Of a stretch of 64,000 nt of DNA, positions 1,440 to 16,355 are shown one piece after another. A model generated the notes under the pieces. The model had not been told where the DNA came from. It saw only the letters and a list, made by a program, of their open reading frames with translations, and searched no databases. Numbering within the stretch: the stretch's first letter is position 1; the number at the start of each line of letters is the position of its first letter. Both the position numbers and the translations under genes were made by a program. The stretch spans positions 2,543,001 through 2,607,000 of the forward strand of contig NZ_JPOL01000002.1 in assembly GCF_000733945.1 (NCBI RefSeq), written 5' to 3'. The DNA comes from Flavimarina sp. Hel_I_48. Lineage in GTDB: Bacteria > Bacteroidota > Bacteroidia > Flavobacteriales > Flavobacteriaceae.

Positions 1440-3458
1440 ATGAAAACCAGATTATTTGAATCACTGGAAAAGTATTTTGTCCTTGCCTTAATAGTTCTGG
1501 TTTTTCTGTTTTTGGCTCGGGCAGGTGAACTTATGCTGTACAATAGCAATCATGCGCTTCCCGCTGATTTCTTTTCTTTACTTGTTTCTGGCTGGGCGAC
1601 TGATTTTGTTTTGTGGCTGCAATGGCTCTTGATACCCCTTTTGATTTTTGTCCCGTTCTTTATAATTACTCCCAGGATAACTGTTGTGGTCTTTGGTTTT
1701 TTAATCGTTGTATTTTTCGCGGTACATTTACTACTGATAAGTTATTTCAACACTTCATTGGTTTTGCTGGGTTCAGATCTACTGGGCTATTCGCTTGATG
1801 ATATTAAACAAACGGTGGGAGCATCAGGGAGTTTATCATTCGGTTCTGTTCTTCTTTATATTAGCGTGCTCCTGCTGTTGAGTGCAAGTCTGTATTTCTG
1901 TTCAACAAAATATCGCGTTCACAAATACTTTTCGATTTCTTTTATCTTCTTATCGCTTCTACTTATTATACCCCAGGTTTCTAACAGCGTGACTTTCTCA
2001 GAGGGAGCATCAGATTTTGGTAATTCGATCGTGGTCAATAAGTCTGCTCATTTTTATGGCGAGGTCGAACATTATTTTTCTAAAACAGCATATGAAGTTG
2101 ATATCTATGCTGCCAACTATTTAAGGAGTTACGGAGAAGATCATTTAACTAGAAGTATTGAGAAGGAATATACTTTTACAGATTTTCCTTTTTTGCATAA
2201 ACGTAAAAAGGACGATGTGCTTACCCCTTTTTTCAAACCCAATGAAAAAGCTCCCCATCTTGTCTTTATTCTGGTTGAAGGGCTGGGAAGGGCTTTTACT
2301 AATGAGGGCGCTTATCTGGGCAATTTCACCCCTTTTCTGGATTCTTTATCACAAAAAAGCCTGTACTGGAAAAACTTTATAAGTAGCGGTGGTAGGACGT
2401 TTGCCGTACTTCCTTCTATAATGGGATCGCTACCCTTTGCAGAAAAAGGCTTTCTGGAACTAAAGCAAAGCATGCCAAAGGAACTTTCCCTGATTAATCT
2501 CCTAAGCAAAAACGCATACGAAACCTCGTTTTTTTATGGTGGTAATTCTGAATTTGATGGTATGGATACCTATCTCAAAAAAAATGGGATTGATGGAATT
2601 TATGATGAACCTACATTTCCGCCTACCTATAAAAAACTGCCTGGTAGTGCCAATTTTAGTTGGGGTTATGGGGATAGGGAACTGTTCGATTATTATCTAA
2701 AGAAGAAAAAGGATAAAACGCTTTCAAGACCGCGACTGGATATTTTATTGACTCTGACCACGCACAGTCCATTTAAAATAAATGACGCAGAAAAGTATGA
2801 GGATCTCTTTGAAAAAAGGATGAATTTGCTCAATTTTTCTACCGAGGAGAAAGAAAATCACAGGGTTTATAAAAATCAATTTGCAACCATTCTTTATACA
2901 GATGAGGCCATTAAAGAACTATTTGAAACTTATAAAAAACGAAGCGATTTTAATAACACCATTTTTATTATTACCGGGGATCACCGTATTCCGGAAATAC
3001 CCATGAGCTCTAAAATAGATCGCTATCATGTACCCTTAATGATATATTCCCCTATGCTTACCAGAACCGCAAGTATTGCTTCGGTGTCAAGTCACTTTGA
3101 TATCGCCCCAAGTCTTTTGAATTATCTGGCGTACAACCATCAATTCAAAATACCTGTGGAAACCAGCTTTTTAGGCAGTGGTCTGGATACGGTACGATCG
3201 TTTAGAAATATACACGAGATGCCTTTAAAACAGACTAAAACAGACCTTGTAGATTACGTTAAGGGCATTTATCACCTTAATAAAGACAATCTTTTTGAAC
3301 TTAACAGGGATCTTGGTGAATTCAAGATTGAGAATGAAAACAAAAAAGCCGAACTGCAAGCAGCTTTCCGGGCCTTTAAAAGACGTAATTTGGAAATTAC
3401 TAATGGTGCTCCCTTAATTCCTGATTCCATCTACAACAACTATATCCTCAAGCGGTAA
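1440..3458 (+). CDS. LtaS-like membrane sulfatase/phosphoglycerol transferase family protein
   Basis: A 672-residue protein of the lipoteichoic-acid-synthase/alkaline phosphatase superfamily. The first ~180 residues hold about five membrane segments; the rest is a predicted periplasmic catalytic domain. Visible metal and catalytic motifs are LVEG (about 277-280), GRTF (about 317-320, its Thr a likely nucleophile), HSPF (His near 443) and TGDH (about 512-515). Members move phosphoglycerol or phosphoethanolamine groups onto polymers or lipids, and in Bacteroidota the substrate is usually unknown. The gene converges on, and ends 2 bp from, a polysaccharide operon, so modification of that product is possible but inferred. 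No promoter was identified upstream. Confidence 0.85.
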   Translation: MKTRLFESLEKYFVLALIVLVFLFLARAGELMLYNSNHALPADFFSLLVSGWATDFVLWLQWLLIPLLIFVPFFIITPRITVVVFGFLIVVFFAVHLLLISYFNTSLVLLGSDLLGYSLDDIKQTVGASGSLSFGSVLLYISVLLLLSASLYFCSTKYRVHKYFSISFIFLSLLLIIPQVSNSVTFSEGASDFGNSIVVNKSAHFYGEVEHYFSKTAYEVDIYAANYLRSYGEDHLTRSIEKEYTFTDFPFLHKRKKDDVLTPFFKPNEKAPHLVFILVEGLGRAFTNEGAYLGNFTPFLDSLSQKSLYWKNFISSGGRTFAVLPSIMGSLPFAEKGFLELKQSMPKELSLINLLSKNAYETSFFYGGNSEFDGMDTYLKKNGIDGIYDEPTFPPTYKKLPGSANFSWGYGDRELFDYYLKKKKDKTLSRPRLDILLTLTTHSPFKINDAEKYEDLFEKRMNLLNFSTEEKENHRVYKNQFATILYTDEAIKELFETYKKRSDFNNTIFIITGDHRIPEIPMSSKIDRYHVPLMIYSPMLTRTASIASVSSHFDIAPSLLNYLAYNHQFKIPVETSFLGSGLDTVRSFRNIHEMPLKQTKTDLVDYVKGIYHLNKDNLFELNRDLGEFKIENENKKAELQAAFRAFKRRNLEITNGAPLIPDSIYNNYILKR

Positions 3459-3460
3459 AT

Positions 3461-4618
3461 TCAATTGAGTCTATTTCTTTCTTCCTTTAGGATGTTAGTG
3501 AGCATAGGACGGTAAAACTTCCAGAAGAAACTGGAACGCTCAGAAGGTTTTCGATCATCATAGAAGAAACTTTTAAAAAAACCAATGCCTTTAAAATAGG
3601 AACTCGTTAGGCTAATACTATTATCGCTAAAATCCCCTGAAAAGTAATAAAAACGATAGTCTTTATCCAGATGGCTCAGAACTGCCGGGAAGGTATGGGG
3701 AATATTATTTTCAGTGAGCAGGGTAGCGCCGGCATTCATCAGTTCCATGGTAAATGAAGCCTCGATCTTATTAATTTTTAGGTCTGGTTGCATGATATCA
3801 AACCAAAAGGAATATTTGATTTTTTCGGGTAACCCCAATCTCTGTTGTGCTTGAACGGTGGAATGAATTTGCGGCAAAGCATTTTTTATTTGCTTACCTT
3901 CTTCTAAAATCATTACTTCATCCTTTATGTTTACAAAAACAAGACCTGCATTTTTGAAAGGCCATTGATCGTTATGCGTTCTTTTGTAATTCGTGATCAG
4001 CCATTTGGGTATTTCGGGGTTGGTGTCTATATCCAGATTTTGAAAATAACGCGCCGTCCAGCCTGTCCATTTTAGTCCGAACATCTTTTCGAATTCCGAA
4101 CGGTTTCTCAGTTGGGTAGGCGAGCCTATGGTATTGAATTCCGTAAGGATAAGTTTATGGCGGCTTTTCATTTTATTGAGCAGTTCAATATCCTGATTGG
4201 TCAAACCGCCGTATAATATGCCGGAGCGCGCGCTGGCGTCCCCTTCCTTAAACCATTCATTATTATAAATTCCGTAGGTATCTGTAAAATATACCATGTC
4301 TGCATCGCTGCCCAACTGGCTCAGCTGCTGGGATGAAAATCGTTCCAGTCCCTTCAGTTCATATTGCTCATCCTGCAAAGGGAAAAACCCAAAGTAATCT
4401 TCACTTATTTTATAGGGTTTATCAGACGTTTTGGTGATTTTATTGTGATTGAGCACCCAGTTTAGGGAAATATGTTCCTGACCATCTTTGGTAAGCACTG
4501 TTTTGTCAACAATGGCCACGACCATTTTTTTGTTCGGCGCAAGCAACCAGGCTATCCACATTCCGCAAGGGATTAGTATAATCAGTATAATTACAGAAAA
4601 GATGATTTTTTTTGCCAT
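3461..4618 (-). CDS. Membrane-anchored protein of unknown function
   Basis: A 385-residue protein with one N-terminal membrane segment (about residues 5-27) followed by a soluble, probably periplasmic domain. It contains an alpha/beta-looking stretch (DADMVYFTDTYGIY near 105, SGILYGGLTNQDIELL near 130, KLILTEFNTIG near 155) that vaguely recalls amidotransferase-like folds, but I recognise no catalytic triad and assign no function. It is the last gene of a leftward operon, starting 2 bp after the YaiO-type barrel gene, so translation is probably coupled and a role in making or exporting the same polysaccharide is likely. Confidence 0.8.
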   Translation of the reverse strand: MAKKIIFSVIILIILIPCGMWIAWLLAPNKKMVVAIVDKTVLTKDGQEHISLNWVLNHNKITKTSDKPYKISEDYFGFFPLQDEQYELKGLERFSSQQLSQLGSDADMVYFTDTYGIYNNEWFKEGDASARSGILYGGLTNQDIELLNKMKSRHKLILTEFNTIGSPTQLRNRSEFEKMFGLKWTGWTARYFQNLDIDTNPEIPKWLITNYKRTHNDQWPFKNAGLVFVNIKDEVMILEEGKQIKNALPQIHSTVQAQQRLGLPEKIKYSFWFDIMQPDLKINKIEASFTMELMNAGATLLTENNIPHTFPAVLSHLDKDYRFYYFSGDFSDNSISLTSSYFKGIGFFKSFFYDDRKPSERSSFFWKFYRPMLTNILKEERNRLN

Positions 4619-4620
4619 AC

Positions 4621-5880
4621 TTAAAAACGTTTGATGTATCCCAAACTAAGCGATACTTGATTGCCTCTGGTATCCCTTGCATATTCCTGATTTTCCAACG
4701 CGCCTGAAAAGGTAAGTATCGTAGTGTCCCATAATAATTTGCGGTAGCCCAGCGCGATGTTGCTTGATTTTAATTTGTAGATAGTATCAGGATCAAACAA
4801 TACACTGTTTGCGCTATTGTCTGGAGAAAGTCCCGTACCTATTTTAAGGCTGATAAAATCATCTGCCCCACCCAGATAATAGCGTACCGTTAATGCGTAG
4901 GAATGAGATACCGAATTTCCTGAAGGTGTCAAATACGTACGCAGATTGAACCAATAGTTTTTATAATATTTCCCAACGCCAAGCGTATAGATCCAGGTGT
5001 TTTCACTAAAAGCCAAAAAGCGAAAACCTGCATCGGCCTCAAAAGCAGCAGGCAGATTTGCGTATAGGGAAAAACCAGCGCGATATCTGGGAAATATCCC
5101 GTCTTTGCTGGATATACCACCGCTTACATAGGTGTAAAAAAGATCAGAAATACGGGGATAGGCGTCTATTTCAAACTGAGTTCCATTGGTTCTGAATCTA
5201 TTTGCATAATTGACACGTGCGGTCACCGAACCTAATTTTGTCTGCCTCGCATAATCTATACTTGCCAGATGCCAGGGATCATCAAAGCGTTTGTCAAAAT
5301 AGATGAATTCATAGTTGGCACCTATCTCGTTTTTGACCGAAGCGGTGTTTATACCGCTTATGATACTCCTCGCTTCGGTGAGCTTTGGGTTCTTTTTGAG
5401 GAGAAGATCCAAAGTCTTGCGGGCTTCATCATAGCGTTCCAGGTCCTTAAGGATTTTAGCTTTGAGAAGGCCTAAAGATTGAGAATCTGTATGTTTTGAT
5501 AGACCTGCGTCAACAATCACCAGGGCTCTTTCTGAATCTGAATTCCAATATTCTAAATTACCGTAGGCGAGCGATGCTTGTTCGTGACCTGCTTCTTTCA
5601 TCAAGACCTCATTGAATGTAGTGCGTGCCTTGGGTAGGCTGTCTGTAAACGTGTAGAGCCTTCCTAAAAAAACACCGAGTTCCAGATAATCCGGACTTTT
5701 TTTGAGCGCTTCTTTCATCAGGGCGATAGCCGTTACATAATTGTCATTATCAAAAGCTTCAGCACGAGCTTCTGTGTAAAGCTGGTCTGAGGACTTATTA
5801 TTTTGGGCCCAGGAAGACTGTATAAATCCAAACAGGATAAAGATGATGGTGATGTGACTGTTAGATTTTTTTGTGATCAT
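4621..5880 (-). CDS. TPR protein with YaiO-type outer-membrane beta-barrel
   Basis: A 419-residue protein with a signal peptide (about 1-25, ending SSWAQ), TPR-like helical repeats (about 30-170) and a C-terminal half of alternating aromatic/polar strands ending in GYIKRF, typical of an outer-membrane barrel. The layout matches YaiO-family proteins, which in E. coli are encoded near the glycosyltransferase gene yaiP. Combined TPR and barrel proteins (PgaA, BcsC) export polysaccharide, so this is the likely outer-membrane port for the product of the upstream GT2 enzyme. It starts 33 bp after that gene and ends 2 bp before the unknown gene. Confidence 0.8.
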   Translation of the reverse strand: MITKKSNSHITIIFILFGFIQSSWAQNNKSSDQLYTEARAEAFDNDNYVTAIALMKEALKKSPDYLELGVFLGRLYTFTDSLPKARTTFNEVLMKEAGHEQASLAYGNLEYWNSDSERALVIVDAGLSKHTDSQSLGLLKAKILKDLERYDEARKTLDLLLKKNPKLTEARSIISGINTASVKNEIGANYEFIYFDKRFDDPWHLASIDYARQTKLGSVTARVNYANRFRTNGTQFEIDAYPRISDLFYTYVSGGISSKDGIFPRYRAGFSLYANLPAAFEADAGFRFLAFSENTWIYTLGVGKYYKNYWFNLRTYLTPSGNSVSHSYALTVRYYLGGADDFISLKIGTGLSPDNSANSVLFDPDTIYKLKSSNIALGYRKLLWDTTILTFSGALENQEYARDTRGNQVSLSLGYIKRF

Positions 5881-5913
5881 TTCAAATAGTGTAAAACTGT
5901 AATACTTATTTTT

Positions 5914-7344
5914 TTACTTCTGGGCAGATGGTTTTCCAAAACCTGTACGGGTCATTTTTCCCCAGGAATCCTTGCCCATCAATAGGTCTATATTTCCCCT
6001 AACTGCAGACCACATCACAAAAGGGTGATAAATAAGTGGTTCTAACATTGCCGTTCCTAAAAGTTTTAGCATGTCTTGCGGCTTTTTATATTGCTGAAAA
6101 GTGAATTCTTCAAAAAATAAGGCGGTGATGGAAAAAAGTATGGAAAAGCTGTATACCACCCCAAAGAAAATGAAGAATACAGACCAGTTTATTTGCCCGA
6201 ATATAAAGAGAAATAGGAAAAATAAGATTCCAAAAAACTCTATAATGGGCGCTAACCATTCAAAAAATACCCAATAAGGGGTACTTAATAGCCCTAAAAT
6301 GCCATATTTAGGGTTAAAAATCATCTTTTTATGAATACTTAAGGTTTCTATCGTCCCCCTTGTCCAGCGGTTGCGCTGCCTATACAGGATTTTCCAGGTT
6401 TGGGGTACTTCTGTCCAGCAGAGGGGATCTGGCACAAAACCTACTTTATAGGGCACGTTTTTTTTGCGCATGAGGCGGCGCATGCGCACAAGCAGCTCCA
6501 TATCTTCACCTACGGTCTCGTGATTATAGCCACCGGCCTCAATGACCGTAGCTTTATCAAACATGCCAAAGGCGCCAGAGATGAGCAATAAACCATCTAC
6601 ACGAGACCATGCCATCCTGCCCATTAAAAAAGCCCTGAAATACTCTAAAATCTGTGCGCGCGCAACAAAGCTTTTAGGTAGGCAGACTTCGGTGATCCTG
6701 CCGTCTTCTACAACGCATGAATTTGCTACCCGAATAATACCACCGGAAGCGATAACTTTTTTCGTGTTGTTTAAAAAAGGTTTGATAAGTTTAAGAAGGG
6801 CATCACGTTCTAATATGCAATCTACATCTATACAGCATATTATATCGTGTTTACTGCTATTAATGCCGCTATTTAGCGCATCAGATTTTCCCCCATTGAA
6901 CTTATCTACGACTTTTAGATTTTTATAAGCTTTGTTTTTAGATACGTATAAGCCTTTAATGTTTTTTGAAGGAACGTGTTTAAACTGCAGGTCTTTGTCT
7001 AAATAAAGATCAAAGTGCTGCACGAGCTTTGCAAGCGTGTCATCACTGCTGCCATCATTGATTATTATGATCTCGTATGCAGGATAGTCAAGGGTAAGCA
7101 GGGATTTTACATTCTCTATTACATTTGCTTCTTCATTGTAGGCTGGTGCCAGTAAAGAAATCTTTGGCAAATGTGCCGATTGTAAAAGTCCTATCTCATC
7201 TTTAAAATTGTATCTGCGCTTATAATCCTTTAATTCTATCAAAGAAAATACAGAGGAAAAAATATAACCAAAAGACATGATCATGCCGTAGGCTAAGAAT
7301 AGCCAACTTGCAATATCTATTAGCTGATGAAAATTTATATTCAA
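5914..7344 (-). CDS. Processive GT2 family glycosyltransferase (PgaC/BcsA-like)
   Basis: A 476-residue inner-membrane enzyme. One membrane segment (about 13-37) precedes the GT-A domain, with DGSSDDT (97-103), DVD (173-175, metal and nucleotide-sugar), ED (280-281, catalytic base) and QRNRW (323-327, the QxxRW acceptor motif of processive enzymes). Three or more membrane segments follow (about 355-430). The set D, DxD, (E/T)ED, QxxRW marks polymerising enzymes such as poly-GlcNAc, hyaluronan and cellulose synthases; the sugar cannot be told. It is downstream of the HEAT gene and upstream of the YaiO-type port, which supports a synthesis-and-export unit. Confidence 0.9.
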   Translation of the reverse strand: MNINFHQLIDIASWLFLAYGMIMSFGYIFSSVFSLIELKDYKRRYNFKDEIGLLQSAHLPKISLLAPAYNEEANVIENVKSLLTLDYPAYEIIIINDGSSDDTLAKLVQHFDLYLDKDLQFKHVPSKNIKGLYVSKNKAYKNLKVVDKFNGGKSDALNSGINSSKHDIICCIDVDCILERDALLKLIKPFLNNTKKVIASGGIIRVANSCVVEDGRITEVCLPKSFVARAQILEYFRAFLMGRMAWSRVDGLLLISGAFGMFDKATVIEAGGYNHETVGEDMELLVRMRRLMRKKNVPYKVGFVPDPLCWTEVPQTWKILYRQRNRWTRGTIETLSIHKKMIFNPKYGILGLLSTPYWVFFEWLAPIIEFFGILFFLFLFIFGQINWSVFFIFFGVVYSFSILFSITALFFEEFTFQQYKKPQDMLKLLGTAMLEPLIYHPFVMWSAVRGNIDLLMGKDSWGKMTRTGFGKPSAQK

Positions 7345-7426
7345 GCAAATTGGGTTTTGAAGTAGGTTAAGGCATTCAGAACGTGTGTTTTTAAAACACG
7401 TGCAAGGGTAGTGCGTCCTGTAACCC

Positions 7427-8473
7427 TTATGCTAATTTATTTTTGAACGTTATTCCTTTTACAAGAGGGGTTTTGGGTTTAAAGTGACGGGCAATCTTTA
7501 GATACTGAATTTTTAATGCCCGCTCGTTTACTTTTATATGAGGGGCGATTGCCTGCAAATGATTTTCGGTTCCCATCACCTTAATGGTTTTGAAAATTTC
7601 TGTTTTGATCTTAAGGCTTTCTTTGGGAAAATTCTCAATAAGTAAGGGTATTGCTTCTTCGATTTCCATCTTTCGAAGGGAAACAATTGCTTGGTACCGT
7701 ATATCAGCATTGGGATGATTTACCAGTTTTTGTAAGGGTAAGATGTTCTCAAACTGATTGTGATCTACAATCATCTTAATACAAAAGATGGTAACGCTGG
7801 GTTGCCTGTGGTCCAGCCATCTGGAAAAATCAGGCATCTCCCCTTCATACGTGCGCAGCTCAGTTTCCATCCCTATTTGTTGCCACAGTGTCAGGGGCCT
7901 ATCTATTTTATCCAGAAACGCAAGTGGATTGTTTTTTGATGCGTTTATAAGGTACATAATTGTTTGATGACGTGTCTCCTCGCGTTTAGCATTGAGTTGC
8001 GGTAAGACCATATCTTCTGGTACAATAACATTCAATTGACTTGATGCATGAATTGCCCTGGCCTTTTTATGCCAGCCTCTTCCCTTAAGGTCTTTTAATA
8101 GAAACTTGTAGAGATCAAGGCCATCAAATAGTTCTTTGATCAGCAATGAGGATTCTCCCTTTAAATTGTTAGTGTACATAAGCAATTGAGTTATTGCAAC
8201 ATGGTTATCGTAGGTGGTTTTTAAATGTTCGTTCCTAAACTTCTTTAAGCCATTTGCCTTATCAAATTCTTCATCAAACAAAAAATTATTTATAAAATCT
8301 ATAATAAGAAGCTTTAGGTTTTTTTTCCTAATTTCCTTTTTATTTTTTCTAATGCGCAATACAAGAACAGTCCCCAGCAACACCACTGCCAGTATTGAAA
8401 AAAGTATGGTAAGCTTAAAATTGATTTCAAGTATTATAGGCCAGTCCTGAAATGATTTTGGGAAAAAGTTCAT
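7427..8473 (-). CDS. Membrane-anchored HEAT-repeat protein
   Basis: A 348-residue protein with a single membrane segment (about 17-36), a basic stretch (RIRKNKKEIRKKN) and a cytoplasmic helical region with HEAT-like repeats in the C-terminal half (for example NPADIRYQAIVSLRKM-like and LKIKTEIFKTIKVMG). I chose the ATG at 8471-8473 because it places the membrane segment close to the N-terminus; an in-frame ATG at 8542 would overlap the upstream regulator by 26 bp. HEAT repeats are protein-binding scaffolds. Between a CheY-like regulator and the GT2 gene, it is a plausible link between phosphorelay output and the synthase; this is inference. Confidence 0.75.
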   Translation of the reverse strand: MNFFPKSFQDWPIILEINFKLTILFSILAVVLLGTVLVLRIRKNKKEIRKKNLKLLIIDFINNFLFDEEFDKANGLKKFRNEHLKTTYDNHVAITQLLMYTNNLKGESSLLIKELFDGLDLYKFLLKDLKGRGWHKKARAIHASSQLNVIVPEDMVLPQLNAKREETRHQTIMYLINASKNNPLAFLDKIDRPLTLWQQIGMETELRTYEGEMPDFSRWLDHRQPSVTIFCIKMIVDHNQFENILPLQKLVNHPNADIRYQAIVSLRKMEIEEAIPLLIENFPKESLKIKTEIFKTIKVMGTENHLQAIAPHIKVNERALKIQYLKIARHFKPKTPLVKGITFKNKLA

Positions 8474-8516
8474 GGTATATATAATTTGTAATAAGGCTAA
8501 GGAGTCATTAGGGGCA

Positions 8517-8894
8517 TCACGTATTGTAAATGGATTTACCAAGAGAACGTTTTACCCTTAGCGCAAGCTCATTAGGACTAAAGGGTTTTGTTATAAAATC
8601 GTCTACACCCATAGAAAATGCATCTGTGATAATATCCTCCTGAGTTGCTGTTGATAAAACAATTATAGGTAAGTCTGGATGGTTTTTTTTTATGTATTCT
8701 ATCAGTTGGTTTCCAGTTATAAAGGGCAACATTAAATCAGTTAGCACAAGGTCAAAAGATTCTGATTCCAGTTTTTTCATAGCCTCCCGGCCATCTTCTG
8801 TAAGATGCACGTCATATCCTTCTTTTTTGAGCTTAAACTCCAGGGATTTTATAACCATAGGGTTGTCTTCTATTACTAATATTCTCTTCTTCAT
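8517..8894 (-). CDS. Single-domain CheY-like response regulator
   Basis: 125 residues making one complete receiver domain: acidic pair E9/D10, phospho-acceptor D53 (LVLTDLMLP), conserved Thr near 82-84 and K103 (ITKPF). There is no DNA-binding output domain, so it must act by binding a partner. It follows the receiver-Hpt gene by 19 bp and precedes the HEAT gene by 43 bp. It is the natural end point of a relay from the hybrid kinase through the Hpt protein, with HEAT or GT2 as likely target. Confidence 0.93.
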   Translation of the reverse strand: MKKRILVIEDNPMVIKSLEFKLKKEGYDVHLTEDGREAMKKLESESFDLVLTDLMLPFITGNQLIEYIKKNHPDLPIIVLSTATQEDIITDAFSMGVDDFITKPFSPNELALRVKRSLGKSIYNT

Positions 8895-8913
8895 GATAAG
8901 TTGGTATTTATGG

Positions 8914-9624
8914 TCATTTGAGTAACGGGTTACTCAATTCATTTTTTAATTGAATAAATTCATTGTTTAGAGCATCAACCATTTGACATATTTCTTCGTT
9001 AGGTGTTTGATAAACAAGGTTATGGCAAAGCATACTGCCCACTTTATTGCTTAACATCTCAAAAGATGGTTTTATGTTGTGGGCCACTTTACGTATTTCT
9101 TCAAAATCCTGATTTAAAAGTAATCCTTCCATTTCCTGTATTTTGACGGAAACTGATTGTTCGAATATTGTTAGGGATTCTAATATTAATTCTTCATCAC
9201 CATCATAAGTGTCTCTTAGGTACTGCAGGGAATACATAGGGGTTTCTGCCTTGTTTTCTGCTATCGCGATCGGTTTATTTAAAAATTCCTTTACGCTTTT
9301 AATAGTATGTTCAGTAAGGGAATTGGAAATAAATACAGCTGGATTTTTATTGCTTTCGCTATTTTTTTCCTCTGAAACAATTACTACCGGTAATTCCATT
9401 TTAAGTTCTTCCAGCACATAGTCAATAACTTTATACGCATTTAGAGGGGCAGCTTTTTCCTCTATGACAATGCCTGCTACGGCTTCGTTTTTTTTTATCC
9501 AGAGAATTGCGCTCATACTGTTGTTAAAATCAAATACTTTAAAATCTTCTTTTTCCAGTAATTCCCTTATCAATTGCCTTGAATTGTCGTTTGCATTAAT
9601 GACCAAGATTATTCTACTACTCAT
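8914..9624 (-). CDS. Degenerate receiver plus Hpt phosphotransfer protein
   Basis: 236 residues. The first ~115 fold like a receiver (RIILVINANDNSRQLIRELL) but the usual acidic pair is N/D-like and the phospho-Asp position reads GIVIEEKAAP, so phosphorylation is unlikely. The last ~100 residues look like an Hpt helical bundle with the phosphorylatable His in KVAHNIKPS (about H181). It lies 39 bp downstream of the hybrid kinase. The predicted job is to carry phosphate from the kinase's receivers to the CheY-like protein encoded next, with the dead receiver serving for docking. Confidence 0.75.
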   Translation of the reverse strand: MSSRIILVINANDNSRQLIRELLEKEDFKVFDFNNSMSAILWIKKNEAVAGIVIEEKAAPLNAYKVIDYVLEELKMELPVVIVSEEKNSESNKNPAVFISNSLTEHTIKSVKEFLNKPIAIAENKAETPMYSLQYLRDTYDGDEELILESLTIFEQSVSVKIQEMEGLLLNQDFEEIRKVAHNIKPSFEMLSNKVGSMLCHNLVYQTPNEEICQMVDALNNEFIQLKNELSNPLLK

Positions 9625-9663
9625 GATTTTCCCAATTTTACATTAACATATTTATTTACGGTA

Positions 9664-12600
9664 TTAACTAGCCGAAATTTTCTCTCCCCTGTCAAAGATC
9701 AACTCCTTGATTATCACTTTGTTTAAGGTTTGCATGATTACAGGTTTTGTCACATAGTCATTCATCCCGTAACTTAAGCATCGTTCCCGTTCACCCTTGA
9801 TCGTACGAGCGGTCAGTGCGACGATAGGTGTACTTGATAAGTTGTTATCCTCTTCTAGAGCCCTGATCTGCTCTGAGGCTTCAAAACCACTGAGTATGGG
9901 CATTTGAATATCCATAAAAATCAAATCAATTTTTTGTTCTTTGAAAGCCAACACCGCTTCCTCACCATTATCAACCTCAATAAGCTGTACTTTTGGCATT
10001 AGTTTTTTAAGAATGGTACGTGTAAGATGTTTGTTTACGGGATTATCTTCGGCCACAAGTATGCTAAATTCATAGGTTGCAAGATCTACTTTGCCAATTT
10101 CACTAGTAATCTGAGGGCTGGTGGCGGTAGAAAGTTCAGGATAATTTATCTGATTTATCAGACTAAAAAGCTCATCCATGTGTATAGGTTTCGTTTTATT
10201 GAACTGAACCTTATATTCTTTACATTTTTTAGCGGTTATTTCATCATCTACAGAGCTGTGCAACAATATAATAGGAAGTTCTGCCATGTCTATCTTAAGT
10301 GCATTTCTTATATGCTCAATAAGCTCCAGACCATCCATATAAGGCATATGATAATCTATGATGGCCAGACTAAAAGACTGGTCTTTTTCAAGAATATCTA
10401 TAGCTTCTATAGCATTTGGGGCAAGGACGGTATTAATATTTTGAGAGGTCAACATCTCATGTAAAATCTTGCGATTATTGTCATTATCATCAACAATAAG
10501 AACCTTATTGATATTGTGCATGGGTAGAACAGGCTTATCTATGACGGTATAGCTCTTTAATCCCACATCAAAATAGAATTTGCTTCCTATTCCCTGGGTG
10601 CTCTCTACTTTTAGGTTGCTACCCATAAGTTCAAGCAAACGGTTGCTTATGGTAAGACCTAATCCTGTACCGCCAAATTTTCTTGTTGTTGAGGCATCTT
10701 CCTGATCAAAAGCGAAGAATATTTTATCAAGGTTGTGCGGGGCAATACCTATACCTGTATCACGTACTGAAAAGGTAAAAATTTTAGTATCGCTTCCCCC
10801 TGTTCTATTTTTTGTGTCGATCTTAAGTTCAATTTCCCCTTGCTTTGTAAACTTGATCGCATTGCCTATAAGGTTCGTCAAAATCTGTTTTATACGAACG
10901 GAATCAATCCAGACAAAGCGCGTTACGGCAGGTGATATGTTGAGCAATATTTCAAGATTATTTTTATGTGCTTGATGCTTAAACATATCTATGATCTGCT
11001 CGCAAAGTGTAATGATATCCACTTTTTCTTCACTCAACTCGAGTTTACCCGCTTCTATTTTAGAAAAATCCAGGATATCGTTTATAAGGTCTAAAAGCGA
11101 ATTGGCCGAATTGAACACCGTTTGCATATAATTGCTTTGGCTTTCATTAAGTTCGGTTTTCATCAAAAGGTCTGTAAAACCTATCACTCCATTGAGCGGT
11201 GTACGAATTTCATGACTCATATTTGCCAGGAATTCAGATTTTGACTTGCTGGCCATCTCTGCTCTCTCTTTGGCGATAACGAGTGATTCTTCCATTTCTT
11301 TGAGCTCAGAAATGTCTGTGGAAACCCCCAGATAACCGGTAATTTGATTGTCCTGATTGCGAATAGTGGTGACCACCAGCTGTACGGGAAGTTGGGTACC
11401 ATCCTTTTTTCTATAGGTCCATTCTTGATATTTGGATTTTTCTAGATGCGCATCGTATGTGAAGACATCATTTGTATTTAGGGCGATACCTTTTTCCTCA
11501 GATAACTGTTGTCTTCTTGTTTCTACCTCTTCAGGTATATGAAACAAACTGGGGCTTTTTTTGTTTATGACCTCTTCAGCCTTATAACCTAGAATTCGTT
11601 CTGCACCTTTATTGAATTTTTTAATCACATGATTGAGGTCTGTCTCTACGATAACAATCTGGGTCGTCGCATCAAGAAGCGATTGTAAATCTTTAAGGGT
11701 ACTTTTGAGATCATTCTGGGCCTTTACATGCTGTGTCATGTCCACGACCTGAAAAATCAATGACTTTACACCACCCAGCTCGTCGTAGATGGCCGAGACA
11801 TAAAGGTGGCAGTTAACAATCCTCCCCTGCTTATGAATGTAGCGCTTTTCAACTGTATAATAGTCTATCTCATTGCTGAATATACTTTGTATATAATGCG
11901 CATCGTTATTATGATCATCGGGATGGGTAATATCCCAAAAATGAATCTGAAGTAATTCATTTTTTTCGTACCCCACCATGTGTGCAAGGTTTTTATTGAC
12001 CATTATCCAATCTCCTTTTGTGGATACGACCCCCATACCGTTCGGGGAATTTTCAAACGCCTTGACAAATTTATTTGCATTCTCAGTAGCCTGACGTTGT
12101 AGTTCTTTTTTATAGGTTATGTCCTGCACCTGTGCTACCACGAGTTTTCCCGTATGCTCGTTTGCGGGCATTAATGAAGAAATCATACTGCACCAGATAG
12201 TTTTTCCCGATCTGTGCTTGCATTGAATCTCTAATTTTTTAGTAGTGTTTTCTGAAGTGGTCAGCTCCTTTTTATAGTCCTGAAAGGCATCTAAGAACTC
12301 AGGATTTACCAATTCTTTGAATGTCAGCTTTGAAATTTGCTCTTCAGTAAACTTTTCCATCCCAAAAATGCGCTTGCTCGCTGGGTTTATCGCTACGATG
12401 GTATCAGATGGATCAAAAAGAAGGATTCCCAGCGGGGAATTATCGTAGATACTTTCAAACCTGTTTTTTGCCGCTTTAAGCTCAATTTGTTGCTTTTTTT
12501 GCTCATTTATATCTTGAAAAGCCCCAAAAACCCGTATACACTTGCCATTTACAAATTCAGGTTTTCCAAAAGAACGTACCCAGATTTCATTGCCCTTCGC

Positions 12601-13299
12601 CGTGACAAGTTTAAACTCATCATCAAATGGCTTCCCAAGTTCAATAGCTTCATTAAAGAGTTTCATAATAAGATCCCTACTCCAGCCTTCTTTATAAAAA
12701 GAAATCCCGACATTCAAATCTGGAACAAAGTCAGGATCAACTTCATGAATATCGTAGGTGACGCTTGTCCAACTTATCGTCTGGGAAATAAGATCTACAT
12801 CCCAGCCGCCTATTCTAGCTATGTGGTTGGTCTCTTTATAAATTGACTCAAATTTCTCTAAATGCAGTATTTGTTTTTCTAAATCTTCAATCTTATGGGG
12901 TACTGCTTCTTTTACTAATTTAAATTTAAATACTAAGCCTTTAGAGGCTAGTGCCAATATTTCAACGTTATATCCGGAAGGATCAGAGAATCTATTTTTA
13001 AATTCTAAGGTATCCTTATAAATTTCAGAAGGGTTTGCTTTAGCGCTAGCTATAAGCTCTTTTATTTGTTTTTTACAAGCAGAACCAGTAATCTTCGTAT
13101 AGATTTGGAAATGATCGCTTGCTTGTTCGGTATCAAATTTTAAGCTGTTTAAGAAAGAATCATTCATCCAGAATTTTTGTGTATCATCCCAGTTGACATA
13201 CCAGAAACCATCCAGGACATCACAGGTAAACCAGTCAAAAACGGAATCCGACTCTCGGATAAGTTGACGAAATTCTTCTTGAAGATTAGAGTAGGGCAT
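9664..13299 (-). CDS. Hybrid sensor histidine kinase, multiple PAS domains, HisKA-HATPase-REC-REC
   Basis: 1211 residues with no signal peptide or membrane segment, so a cytosolic sensor. About five PAS/PAC units fill residues 1-670. HisKA follows with the phospho-acceptor His near 695 (FLANMSHEIRTPLNG), then HATPase_c (NLIGNAIKF near 835, DTGIGI near 875, GGTGLGL near 900), a first receiver (Asp near 981, LAIIDYHMPYMDG) and a second (Asp near 1129, LIFMDIQMPILSG, KPV near 1183). It heads the leftward operon and should feed the Hpt and CheY-like proteins after it. The signal is unknown; PAS domains often sense redox state, light or small ligands. Confidence 0.93.
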   Translation of the reverse strand: MPYSNLQEEFRQLIRESDSVFDWFTCDVLDGFWYVNWDDTQKFWMNDSFLNSLKFDTEQASDHFQIYTKITGSACKKQIKELIASAKANPSEIYKDTLEFKNRFSDPSGYNVEILALASKGLVFKFKLVKEAVPHKIEDLEKQILHLEKFESIYKETNHIARIGGWDVDLISQTISWTSVTYDIHEVDPDFVPDLNVGISFYKEGWSRDLIMKLFNEAIELGKPFDDEFKLVTAKGNEIWVRSFGKPEFVNGKCIRVFGAFQDINEQKKQQIELKAAKNRFESIYDNSPLGILLFDPSDTIVAINPASKRIFGMEKFTEEQISKLTFKELVNPEFLDAFQDYKKELTTSENTTKKLEIQCKHRSGKTIWCSMISSLMPANEHTGKLVVAQVQDITYKKELQRQATENANKFVKAFENSPNGMGVVSTKGDWIMVNKNLAHMVGYEKNELLQIHFWDITHPDDHNNDAHYIQSIFSNEIDYYTVEKRYIHKQGRIVNCHLYVSAIYDELGGVKSLIFQVVDMTQHVKAQNDLKSTLKDLQSLLDATTQIVIVETDLNHVIKKFNKGAERILGYKAEEVINKKSPSLFHIPEEVETRRQQLSEEKGIALNTNDVFTYDAHLEKSKYQEWTYRKKDGTQLPVQLVVTTIRNQDNQITGYLGVSTDISELKEMEESLVIAKERAEMASKSKSEFLANMSHEIRTPLNGVIGFTDLLMKTELNESQSNYMQTVFNSANSLLDLINDILDFSKIEAGKLELSEEKVDIITLCEQIIDMFKHQAHKNNLEILLNISPAVTRFVWIDSVRIKQILTNLIGNAIKFTKQGEIELKIDTKNRTGGSDTKIFTFSVRDTGIGIAPHNLDKIFFAFDQEDASTTRKFGGTGLGLTISNRLLELMGSNLKVESTQGIGSKFYFDVGLKSYTVIDKPVLPMHNINKVLIVDDNDNNRKILHEMLTSQNINTVLAPNAIEAIDILEKDQSFSLAIIDYHMPYMDGLELIEHIRNALKIDMAELPIILLHSSVDDEITAKKCKEYKVQFNKTKPIHMDELFSLINQINYPELSTATSPQITSEIGKVDLATYEFSILVAEDNPVNKHLTRTILKKLMPKVQLIEVDNGEEAVLAFKEQKIDLIFMDIQMPILSGFEASEQIRALEEDNNLSSTPIVALTARTIKGERERCLSYGMNDYVTKPVIMQTLNKVIIKELIFDRGEKISAS

Positions 13300-13645
13300 A
13301 GCTGCTAATATCGTTTAGAAGATAAAAATAGGTATTTCAGCTGACATAAAAGCACTTCAACGCATTTAATAATAAACTTATGTTAAATATTAAGAAATAG
13401 GTATTTTGTTTTATGTTACCAGAAGTAAGAGAATGTAATCTGACCATTTAGTATAGAATCGCTTCAGATGTTTAAATAAAGGATAAAAGACTGGATTTTT
13501 ATCAAAAAAGAATTCCTGAAGGGGTCTCACGTATTTATCTAAAGGCTTTTTGAGACCATTGTTCCATATAGAACTGGCAATCAAATTAAAGCTACATCAT
13601 GGCCGTTCAATCAAAACCCTGGTTATCTTTACCAAAAATTATCAT
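13300..13645. other. Divergent intergenic region, kinase operon / helicase
   Basis: This must hold the promoters of two divergent units. I see no clean TAnnTTTG box. A 7-bp inverted repeat (GGTCTCA 13523-13529, TGAGACC 13551-13557) could form a hairpin about 90 bp before the helicase start, in its possible 5' leader. It has no T run and so is not a terminator. Confidence 0.45.
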
Positions 13646-14983
13646 ATGCCCGTAAGTTTCTCAGATTTAGGTGTCAATACCGCGCTACAACAGAGTTTAG
13701 CAGCTTTAAACATTATCCAGCCCACCGCAATACAGCAAAAAGCCATTCCGCTTATCTTAAACGAAAGTAAAGATCTTGTTGCACTGGCCCAGACAGGAAG
13801 TGGAAAGACACTTGCCTTTGGACTGCCCGTATTGCAACATATCGATCCTAAAAATGAGGCCGTACAGGCGGTGATCCTCGCGCCCACACGCGAACTGGGC
13901 CAACAAATCCACACCAATTTACTTTCTTTTGCCGCACATAGCCCAGAAATTAGCATTGCCTCCATTTGCGGTGGCATACCCATTAAACCACAGATTGAAC
14001 GCTTAAAAACGACTACCCACCTTATTGTGGCCACGCCGGGAAGACTGGTAGATTTGATCAATCGAAAAGCCATTGATCTCAGTAAGGTTGTTACTTTGGT
14101 CTTAGATGAGGCCGATGAAATGGTAACTGCCCTAAAAACGGATCTGGATAGCATTCTTGCTGAAATTCCCAAAAACAGGAGGACACTTCTCTTTACCGCT
14201 ACAATGCCTGGAACTATCAAACAACTGGTGCAAAACTATATGAGCAAACATATAGTGCACGTAGAAGCAGAAATGGAAACCGTGGGCCACCAGGGGATTG
14301 ACCATCAATTCGTAGTGGTAGAACCTATTGAAAAACTAGAGGTACTGCTTTATTTCCTGTCTTCTAAAGAAGGGGAGCGGGGCATTATATTTTGCAAGAC
14401 CAAAGCGGCCGTTAATAAACTGGCCAAAAATCTTGCTATTAATAAATTTTCTTCGGGAGCGCTGCATGGCAGTTTGTCGCAGCCTATACGCGATCGTATC
14501 ATGGGCCAGTTTCGGGAAGGGCATATTGATATTTTAGTGGCGACAGATCTTGCCGCACGCGGGCTTGATGTCAAAGAAATCAGTTATGTTGTCAATTATC
14601 ACCTGCCAGACACCTATGAAACCTATGTGCACCGTAGTGGCCGTACGGCAAGGGCAGGGGCAAAGGGGCTTGCGGTTACCGTCTTGCAACAGGAAGAGGT
14701 TTTTGAAATCCCGGAATTTGAGGAAGAACTGGGCATTAGTTTTAGCGAGATGAGAAAACCCGATGCGCAAAGTACCGAAGAAAACAATACGTTGCTATGG
14801 GCCAGGAAAATCTTTAAAACGAAACCGAACCGGACCATTCCGGCTGAATTCAAGGAGAAAATCAATACGGTTTTCCATCACTTAACGAAGGAAGAGCTGA
14901 TTGATAAAATACTGGCGCATCACTTGGCACAGACCGCAATTGCACCTAAAGAGGAGGCAAAACCCACAAAGAAGAAACGTTAG
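13646..14983 (+). CDS. DEAD-box ATP-dependent RNA helicase
   Basis: 445 residues from the ATG at 13646, chosen because the family's Q-motif region (SFSDLG) begins right after it; the frame is open further upstream (to 13550) but that part does not look like the family. Motifs in order: Q motif (PTAIQQKAIP), AQTGSGKT (48-55), PTREL (80-84), TPGR, DEAD (154-157), TAT in place of the commoner SAT, and HRSGRTARAG. A short basic tail (KPTKKKR) ends the protein. It unwinds short RNA duplexes in ribosome assembly or RNA decay. A second, diverged helicase follows 58 bp downstream, likely in the same unit or with its own promoter. Confidence 0.92.
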   Translation: MPVSFSDLGVNTALQQSLAALNIIQPTAIQQKAIPLILNESKDLVALAQTGSGKTLAFGLPVLQHIDPKNEAVQAVILAPTRELGQQIHTNLLSFAAHSPEISIASICGGIPIKPQIERLKTTTHLIVATPGRLVDLINRKAIDLSKVVTLVLDEADEMVTALKTDLDSILAEIPKNRRTLLFTATMPGTIKQLVQNYMSKHIVHVEAEMETVGHQGIDHQFVVVEPIEKLEVLLYFLSSKEGERGIIFCKTKAAVNKLAKNLAINKFSSGALHGSLSQPIRDRIMGQFREGHIDILVATDLAARGLDVKEISYVVNYHLPDTYETYVHRSGRTARAGAKGLAVTVLQQEEVFEIPEFEEELGISFSEMRKPDAQSTEENNTLLWARKIFKTKPNRTIPAEFKEKINTVFHHLTKEELIDKILAHHLAQTAIAPKEEAKPTKKKR

Positions 14984-15009
14984 GATTTAACCATTCAGGT
15001 TAACTTTTA

Positions 15010-15018
15010 TACTTTTTG
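15010..15018 (+). promoter_or_regulatory. Weak -7-like box before the second helicase
   Basis: TACTTTTTG resembles the Bacteroidetes TAnnTTTG -7 element with one extra T, 24 bp before the start codon. No clear -33 box is seen. Confidence 0.25.
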
Positions 15019-15041
15019 AACAATTACATACATACCAATTA

Positions 15042-16355
15042 ATGGCAAACGACATAAAAAACCAAAAGGACATCCTGGAAAAACTGGGTATTGAGGCCTT
15101 AAACCCAATGCAGCAAGAAGCCCTTGCCGTAATTGAAAAAACGGCAAATACCATTCTTTTATCTCCTACGGGAACAGGAAAAACACTTGCTTTTCTACTG
15201 CCCTTAATTGAAAATCTGGATATTGATAACCCGGAAGTGCAAGCCCTGATCGTGGTTCCCACCCGGGAGCTGGCCATTCAGATAGAACAGGTGGTGCGCG
15301 ATATGGGTTCGGGATTTAAAGTGAATGCAGTATATGGCGGCAGGTCAAAAAGTAAGGATAAAATCGAACTCAAACACACGCCGGCTATATTAATAGGTAC
15401 CCCGGGGCGTATCCTGGATCACTTTGACGATGACCGGTTTTCTAAAGCGAGCATCAACGATCTCGTGCTTGATGAGTTTGACAAGTCCCTGGAGATAGGT
15501 TTTGAAAGCGAAATGCGCGAAATCCTAAACGACCTTCCCGCGGTGCGCAGGCGCATATTGACATCAGCGACGCAGGGTGTGGAAATCCCCGGGTTTGTAA
15601 ACCTGAATAAACCGACGATTATTGAATATTTATCGGATAAAAAAGACCCTAAATTGGCCATTAATACGGTTATTTCACCAGATAAAGACAAGCTGGAAAC
15701 TTTATTTGAACTGGTACAATTTCTTGGAAACCAACCGGGGATCATATTTTGCAATTTCAGGGAAAGTATAGAGCGCGTAAGCGATTTCCTGACCGAAAAA
15801 AAGATCAGTCATACGTGTTTTTCGGGGGGTATGGAGCAAAAGGACAGGGAACGCGCACTTATAAAATTTAGAAATGGTACGAGCCAGATTTTGGTAGCCA
15901 CAGACCTTGCTGCGAGGGGGATTGATATTCCAGAACTCAAGTTTATCATTCATTATGAATTACCGCACGCGGCGGCAGAATTTACGCATAGAAACGGCAG
16001 GACCGCGCGGGTAAATGAAAAAGGCACGGCCTACGTACTGCAATGGAAAAACCAGCGATTACCAGATTTTATTGAAAAAACGGAGCCCATAACTATTCCG
16101 AAGGCAAAAACAAACGGGAACGAAGTATGGGAAACGCTCTTTATTTCTGGCGGGAGGAAAGATAAAATCTCTAAAGGCGATATCGCCGGCCTTTTTATAA
16201 AAGAAGGAAAAATAGCCCAGGATCAGTTGGGCGTTATAGAACTCAAACAAGACTGCGCATTTGTCGCCGTACCGCAAAAACTGGCAAATCAATTAGTCAA
16301 CAAATTGAATAACAGCAAACTTAAAAAGAAGAAAGTTCGCATTCACATACTTTAA
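15042..16355 (+). CDS. DbpA-like RNA helicase with DEFD motif II
   Basis: 437 residues. Helicase motifs: SPTGTGKT (41-48), PTREL (73-77), GTPGR (119-123), motif II DEFD (144-147) instead of DEAD, SAT, and HRNGRTARV. The last ~75 residues (ETLFISGGRKDKIS... AFVAVPQ...) resemble the DbpA RNA-binding domain, which in E. coli DbpA binds hairpin 92 of 23S rRNA in 50S assembly. The DEFD change keeps the catalytic D-E and final D, so activity is likely kept. It lies right after another DEAD-box gene of the same direction. The helicase call is firm, the DbpA-type role inferred. Confidence 0.9.
   Translation: MANDIKNQKDILEKLGIEALNPMQQEALAVIEKTANTILLSPTGTGKTLAFLLPLIENLDIDNPEVQALIVVPTRELAIQIEQVVRDMGSGFKVNAVYGGRSKSKDKIELKHTPAILIGTPGRILDHFDDDRFSKASINDLVLDEFDKSLEIGFESEMREILNDLPAVRRRILTSATQGVEIPGFVNLNKPTIIEYLSDKKDPKLAINTVISPDKDKLETLFELVQFLGNQPGIIFCNFRESIERVSDFLTEKKISHTCFSGGMEQKDRERALIKFRNGTSQILVATDLAARGIDIPELKFIIHYELPHAAAEFTHRNGRTARVNEKGTAYVLQWKNQRLPDFIEKTEPITIPKAKTNGNEVWETLFISGGRKDKISKGDIAGLFIKEGKIAQDQLGVIELKQDCAFVAVPQKLANQLVNKLNNSKLKKKKVRIHIL

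Follow-up and report, generated by a model that had tools for sequence, protein, structure and literature searches.

The locus and its genes

Seven genes within a 64,000-nucleotide stretch of the Flavimarina sp. Hel_I_48 genome (contig NZ_JPOL01000002.1, positions 2,543,001 to 2,607,000; this whole stretch is here called the window) encode a hybrid histidine kinase, a histidine phosphotransfer (Hpt) protein, a lone receiver (REC), a HEAT-repeat protein, a family 2 glycosyltransferase (GT2), a YaiO-type barrel and a membrane protein designated ORF7 (Table 1). All seven genes are real, run on the minus strand from 13299 down to 3461, and are separated by gaps of 39, 19, 43, 82, 33 and 2 bp, which is compatible with a single operon; the arrangement is well beyond chance. 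A preliminary description of this DNA had recognized the seven closely spaced genes, and all were confirmed. It missed an eighth member, the LtaS-like gene, which ends 2 bases beyond the stop of ORF7 in convergent orientation and accompanies the set in relatives. Taken together, the locus probably specifies a synthase-dependent polysaccharide secretion system in which the HEAT protein is an obligate partner of the GT2 and relays the signal of the receiver.

Table 1. Genes of the locus in window coordinates, with the basis of each assignment.
Feature	Position	Strand	Basis
Hybrid histidine kinase, cytosolic, multi-PAS, 1211 aa	9664..13299	-	Pfam PAS, HisKA, HATPase, two RECs
Degenerate receiver + Hpt domain, 236 aa	8914..9624	-	Pfam
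Single-domain CheY-like receiver, 125 aa	8517..8894	-	Pfam, 104.5 bits
HEAT-repeat protein, one N-terminal transmembrane helix, 348 aa	7427..8473	-	Pfam, hydropathy, fold model
Processive-type GT2 with transmembrane segments, 476 aa	5914..7344	-	Pfam, NCBIfam; TTG start uncertain
TPR + YaiO outer-membrane beta-barrel, probable export port	4621..5880	-	PF19413, TIGR04390
ORF7, membrane-anchored, GATase1/ThuA-like fold, 385 aa	3461..4618	-	Predicted model, fold matches
LtaS-like alkaline-phosphatase-superfamily transferase, 672 aa, convergent	1440..3458	+	Sulfatase Pfam, 119.5 bits

No transmembrane segment was found in the kinase by hydropathy scan. The protein encoded next, described previously as an Hpt carrier, does possess an Hpt domain over the Pfam cut-off (residues 150-228; PF01627, 25.2 bits against 24.6) with a histidine in the motif AHNIKP as judged by eye, and so has both features expected for phosphotransfer. 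It is not a bare Hpt protein, however, but is preceded by a degenerate receiver: residues 6-90 give a weak REC match (20.1 bits against a cut-off of 30.2) that by eye lacks the aspartate. In the lone receiver Response_reg is the sole domain over the Pfam cut-off, and the residues that characterize a single-domain response regulator (D10, the phospho-accepting D53, S81 and K103) are present and largely conserved. Across 132 operon receivers, the window's own included, D53 is aspartate in 127 and K103 is lysine in 128. Five receivers have lost the phospho-aspartate and nevertheless still lie beside HEAT-GT2 (L073, L120, L129, L149 and L171). Judging from these residues, phosphorylation is the rule among the operon receivers, with a few exceptions that keep a degenerate receiver, perhaps as a constitutive binder.

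The start of the HEAT gene is an ATG at position 8473; the open reading frame as listed begins with TTG at 8542 and overlaps the receiver gene. Its own HEAT_2 match falls below the Pfam cut-off (24.5 against 27.7 bits), and the relatives in L043 and L050 exceed it (33.1 and 33.5 bits). The fold model is all helix, with a helical solenoid behind one transmembrane helix (predicted local distance difference test, pLDDT, 88.8). Fold comparison returned armadillo/HEAT folds and the family profile matches alphaRep proteins, identifying a helical-repeat solenoid. Two basic residues that are invariant in the family alignment, R40 and K43, follow the transmembrane helix, and by the positive-inside rule they would place the solenoid in the cytosol. 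The protein is enlarged to 600-1000 aa in L042, L043, L045, L054 and similar loci; in L043 and L054 its helical-looking parts are separated by long acidic stretches of low complexity.

As read by eye, the GT2 contains the motifs ND, DxD, GED and QRNRW, whose meaning is taken from general knowledge of such enzymes. It differs from the poly-N-acetylglucosamine (PNAG) synthase PgaC, scoring 150.7 bits against the TIGR03937 cut-off of 422.3, and from the cellulose synthase BcsA, scoring 39.1 bits against the TIGR03030 cut-off of 699.1; Pfam finds no PilZ domain in it, including the C-terminal one of BcsA. The TPR protein is a YaiO barrel by its matches to PF19413 (250.7 bits) and TIGR04390 (202.9 bits, cut-off 32).

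ORF7, listed earlier as an unknown membrane protein, indeed has no Pfam or NCBIfam match, but it models as a membrane-anchored protein of GATase1/ThuA-like fold (pLDDT 85.1). A search at E <= 0.001 gave 1215 homologues, which form a large and well conserved family within the Bacteroidota; identity to those of Pedobacter is about 60%. Enzymes with the class I amidotransferase fold use a nucleophilic cysteine. In an alignment of 48 ORF7 sequences no column at or near invariance holds a cysteine, which speaks against a GATase1 enzyme although the fold matches. We infer an accessory role for ORF7. The LtaS-like protein has four N-terminal transmembrane-like segments by hydropathy followed by the Sulfatase domain, as expected of an LTA-synthase-like enzyme, and its matches among solved structures were VP1736 (3lxq) and the lipoteichoic acid primase (4uop); it reached no NCBIfam cut-off. 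In relatives its gene lies within the operon or is fused to the GT2 gene, and a polymer-modifying function is proposed.

Two further features flank the locus. Upstream of the LtaS-like gene, positions 416-778 hold a frame in which nearly the same peptide unit recurs, which looks like a short tandem repeat. At 13550-16355 there are two tandem genes that by eye resemble DEAD-box helicases, the first of which points away from the kinase gene. The system also has helicase-like genes close by in L120, L149 and L153.

The HEAT protein and GT2 are linked across the phylum

To avoid selecting loci by their HEAT protein, we used the GT2 as query against 296 genomes sampled from across the phylum. Matches at E <= 1e-60 were present in 70 genomes, own included. 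There were 77 matches other than the window's own, one of which (L187 in G390, split by an internal stop into two fragments) was removed by a 400-aa filter, leaving 76 loci. A HEAT-type protein is encoded directly upstream of the GT2 in all 76. Of these assignments 65 were made with the first profile, 8 with an iterated profile run on a small number of sequences (the weakest being L184, E 8e-7 and 2.8e-5), and 3 in hidden frames that overlap their neighbours (weakest L179, E 7e-7). The median HEAT-GT2 gap is -1 bp across 143 loci, a partly HEAT-selected set. The HEAT-GT2 linkage is therefore strong.

Of the 76 loci, 56 have a lone receiver (< 170 aa) in the operon on the same strand. Among 521 background genes, all five or more positions distant, 3 encode lone receivers and none gives a HEAT match. 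The receiver gene lies exactly two genes upstream of the GT2 in 42 loci, in seven the order is REC-YaiO-HEAT-GT2 (L123, L125-L128, L130 and L131), and in the rest it is elsewhere in the operon. The order HEAT-GT2-YaiO..REC is found in L066, L068 and L149, the last as HEAT-GT2-YaiO-DUF4838-REC, and in L124 a REC with Hpt adjoins the operon on the opposite strand. The receiver linkage thus holds through gene reshuffling and across families. A YaiO-type barrel lies within six genes of the GT2 in 59 of the 76 loci and ORF7 near it in 9. Hpt was found in 18, which is probably too low as the profile was built from seven seeds. Between YaiO and the distal receiver, L149, L133, L157 and L158 encode a protein of 732-744 aa, which in L149 is DUF4838/glycosidase-20b-like and a possible polymer-degrading partner.

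Closer relatives gave the same picture. Scanning named genomes with a HEAT alignment yielded 29 flavobacterial loci, including Leeuwenhoekiella, Arenibacter, Gillisia, Allomuricauda, Flagellimonas, Robertkochia, Mariniflexile, Gramella and Mesonia; since these loci were selected by HEAT, its presence is uninformative, and it is the order of the other four genes that informs. A lack of shared gene order across relatives had been set beforehand as what would refute the proposal, which passed this test: the order HK, REC/Hpt, REC, HEAT, GT2 (HK, histidine kinase) is kept in 29 of 29, in line with HEAT preceding GT2 throughout the phylum. A YaiO relative was detected in 22 of these loci, an LtaS-like gene in 14 and ORF7 in 12. 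The seven loci with no detected YaiO relative are all from Gillisia, and the kinase, Hpt protein, REC and HEAT are present there. Median identities to the window proteins are 75% for REC, 70% for GT2, 48% for the kinase, 42% for HEAT and 31% for the Hpt protein. The receiver therefore tracks the GT2 rather than the kinase or Hpt protein, which we count in favour of a receiver that serves the synthase.

Within the family (Flavobacteriaceae), 55 of 199 genomes contain HEAT relatives, window included. In each of the 55 other family loci HEAT is followed by a GT2, in a single case (L069) fused to LtaS. The HEAT neighbourhood includes a receiver on its own strand in 51 of them, and finer layouts added L064 and L069; those remaining without a labelled receiver are L117 and L074, where an unlabelled receiver-like frame of 115 aa precedes HEAT. 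The usual layout in this wider group is REC-HEAT-GT2-LtaS-YaiO, accompanied by a shorter hybrid kinase carrying its own Hpt (L043) or by a stand-alone Hpt protein (L039 and L046).

Co-variation and the target of the receiver

For the 99 loci that have the four genes (HEAT-selected plus GT2-selected, one duplicate GT2 having been dropped from 100), pairwise identities were compared by partial rank correlation, controlling for the other two genes in each case, and the results were averaged over 500 subsamples of 50 loci. The values were 0.48 for HEAT-GT2, 0.41 for REC-HEAT, 0.34 for REC-YaiO, 0.20 for REC-GT2, 0.19 for GT2-YaiO and 0.02 for HEAT-YaiO, and REC-HEAT exceeded REC-GT2 in 494 of the 500 subsamples. 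Among 21 divergent representatives the corresponding values were 0.63 for HEAT-GT2, 0.28 for REC-HEAT, 0.26 for REC-YaiO and 0.04 for REC-GT2. The preliminary description had proposed that the receiver acts through the HEAT protein on the synthase. This control model gains from the correlations, since HEAT-GT2 and REC-HEAT rank above REC-GT2 as it predicts, but it is held back by a REC-YaiO value that nearly equals REC-HEAT although contact between receiver and barrel is not expected. The correlations accordingly fit the chain REC-HEAT-GT2 weakly.

Several observations weigh against the receiver acting through the HEAT protein. REC-HEAT was higher than REC-YaiO in only 398 of 500 subsamples, and the correlation loci are partly HEAT-selected and analysed by a method unable to demonstrate contact. 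Neither REC nor GT2 was found fused to HEAT. In the unbiased, GT2-selected set the phospho-aspartate is absent from 4 of 55 receivers (slightly different positions were inspected here than for the operon count of 56), which suggests that some may bind without phosphorylation. Finally, 20 of the 76 loci have no lone REC in the same-strand operon; a long REC-GGDEF-REC protein replaces it in four of them, others have GGDEF neighbours, and in several no receiver was seen nearby.

The strongest alternative is that the phosphorylated receiver contacts the GT2 itself, with the HEAT protein serving only to assemble or stabilise the synthase. In its favour, no other proteins of the set are as conserved as REC and GT2, which lie well above HEAT. 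In addition, the same genome encodes, outside the window, a natural REC-GT2 fusion of 414 aa (C2:122152-123396; L188:10153-11397), whose receiver is 37% identical to that of the window. Matches covering both parts, beginning at query residue 1 or 2, were counted by eye in 46 of the 199 family genomes (own included), and 11 more match the GT2 part only. Receivers and GT2s are thus joined elsewhere too, which keeps direct contact under consideration. By eye and from general knowledge, however, the fused GT2 is of another kind, resembling dolichyl-phosphate transferases, and this explanation also runs counter to REC-GT2 ranking below REC-HEAT in nearly all subsamples. We consider it unlikely.

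Less likely again is that the target of the receiver lies elsewhere, in another regulator or machine, and that the operon is shared only for co-expression. Lone receivers can relay to unlinked partners, and in L177, a locus without a lone receiver, an AraC-type helix-turn-helix protein is encoded upstream of HEAT-GT2. The receiver is, however, kept beside HEAT-GT2 across families and through gene reshuffling, and also in the Gillisia loci in which no relative of the export port was detected.

Cyclic di-GMP and the input to the core

The preliminary description had proposed a switch that replaces the PilZ/cyclic di-GMP (c-di-GMP) control of BcsA and PgaCD. In keeping with this, no GGDEF or PilZ match was detected in the window's genome; GGDEF matches occur in 4 of the 199 family genomes (2 over cut-off), leaving 195 without. 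The proposal may not extend to all lineages, since GGDEF proteins adjoin HEAT-GT2 in some distant ones. In a scan of selected neighbours, rather than of all 76 loci, REC-GGDEF-REC proteins were encoded directly upstream of HEAT in L160, L161, L166 and L169, GGDEF-EAL proteins upstream of the receiver in L171 and L178, and a CHASE3-GAF-PAS-GGDEF protein after the GT2 in L181, L182 and L183; the shorter counterpart in L180 has CHASE3, GAF and PAS but no GGDEF. From these layouts the HEAT-GT2 core seems to be fixed and its input exchangeable. The same neighbours would be expected if the HEAT-GT2 synthase were fundamentally under c-di-GMP control and the receiver had been added in particular lineages, but with GGDEF so rare in the family and a GT2 devoid of PilZ we regard this as very improbable.

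Discussion

The arrangement we favour is as follows. Phosphate from the cytosolic PAS hybrid kinase would reach the lone receiver by way of the kinase's own receivers and the Hpt protein, and the lone receiver would dock on the cytosolic HEAT solenoid and turn the synthase up or down post-translationally. The HEAT protein, anchored to the membrane by one helix, would be the obligate partner of the synthase, a role analogous to that of PgaD and BcsB, the partner subunits of other synthases. The GT2 would polymerise the sugar chain and translocate it at the inner membrane, the TPR-YaiO barrel would export the polymer, the LtaS-like transferase probably adds phospho-alcohol groups to it, and ORF7 would be an anchored accessory. 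What the sequences show directly is the set of parts, their linkage across the phylum and the conservation of the residues used in phosphorylation. That the receiver acts through the HEAT protein, its binding and direction of effect, and the identity and modification of the polymer are what we infer from gene content and conservation. A glycolipid or periplasmic glucan as the GT2 product, in place of a secreted polysaccharide, is highly unlikely: LtaS/OpgB-like enzymes do also modify periplasmic glucans and lipids, but a YaiO-type barrel close to the GT2 in most loci is the layout of an export port.

Parts of the locus resemble known synthase systems. The PNAG systems PgaABCD/HmsHFRS likewise combine a GT2 synthase with a small membrane partner and a TPR/barrel port, and are controlled by c-di-GMP. 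Bcs with BcsG shares a GT2 synthase, partner subunit, TPR/barrel port and modifier of the alkaline-phosphatase superfamily. In E. coli yaiO/yaiP a YaiO barrel is also encoded beside a GT2; we know of no HEAT protein or phosphorelay there. In literature searches we recognized no published description of a HEAT-GT2-receiver system.

Post-translational control of synthase-dependent pathways is said to involve c-di-GMP frequently, and in the Dif-EpsW-EpsZ pathway of Myxococcus xanthus a phosphorylated single-domain receiver is described as activating a polysaccharide synthesis enzyme post-translationally, giving more exopolysaccharide (PMC12802240). EpsW-EpsZ is the nearest published mechanism, and as a precedent for a lone receiver acting on a polysaccharide enzyme it counts in favour of our model. 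Its target differs, being a large monotopic phosphoglycosyl transferase of a Wzx/Wzy pathway, whereas here it would be a Pfam-assigned GT2 synthase with a HEAT partner; and its kinase comes from a chemosensory system, whereas here a hybrid kinase works with an Hpt relay. Compared with EpsW-EpsZ, ours would be a synthase-dependent equivalent with an adapter added.

More tentatively, and with somewhat less confidence than for the locus itself, we suggest an undescribed class of polysaccharide synthases, spread through the phylum, whose obligate regulatory subunit is a HEAT solenoid at the membrane. This subunit would respond to a lone receiver in its phosphorylated form, so that a phosphorelay would take the place that c-di-GMP has in controlling BcsA and PgaCD. 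In some lineages GGDEF proteins would feed this HEAT-GT2 core, the input being exchangeable and the core fixed. If true, this would account for how Flavobacteriaceae with no GGDEF match can switch a secreted polymer without new transcription, and would supply the partner subunit for a whole GT2 clade. The receiver, HEAT protein and GT2 would then constitute a compact system for receiver-to-enzyme signalling at the membrane.

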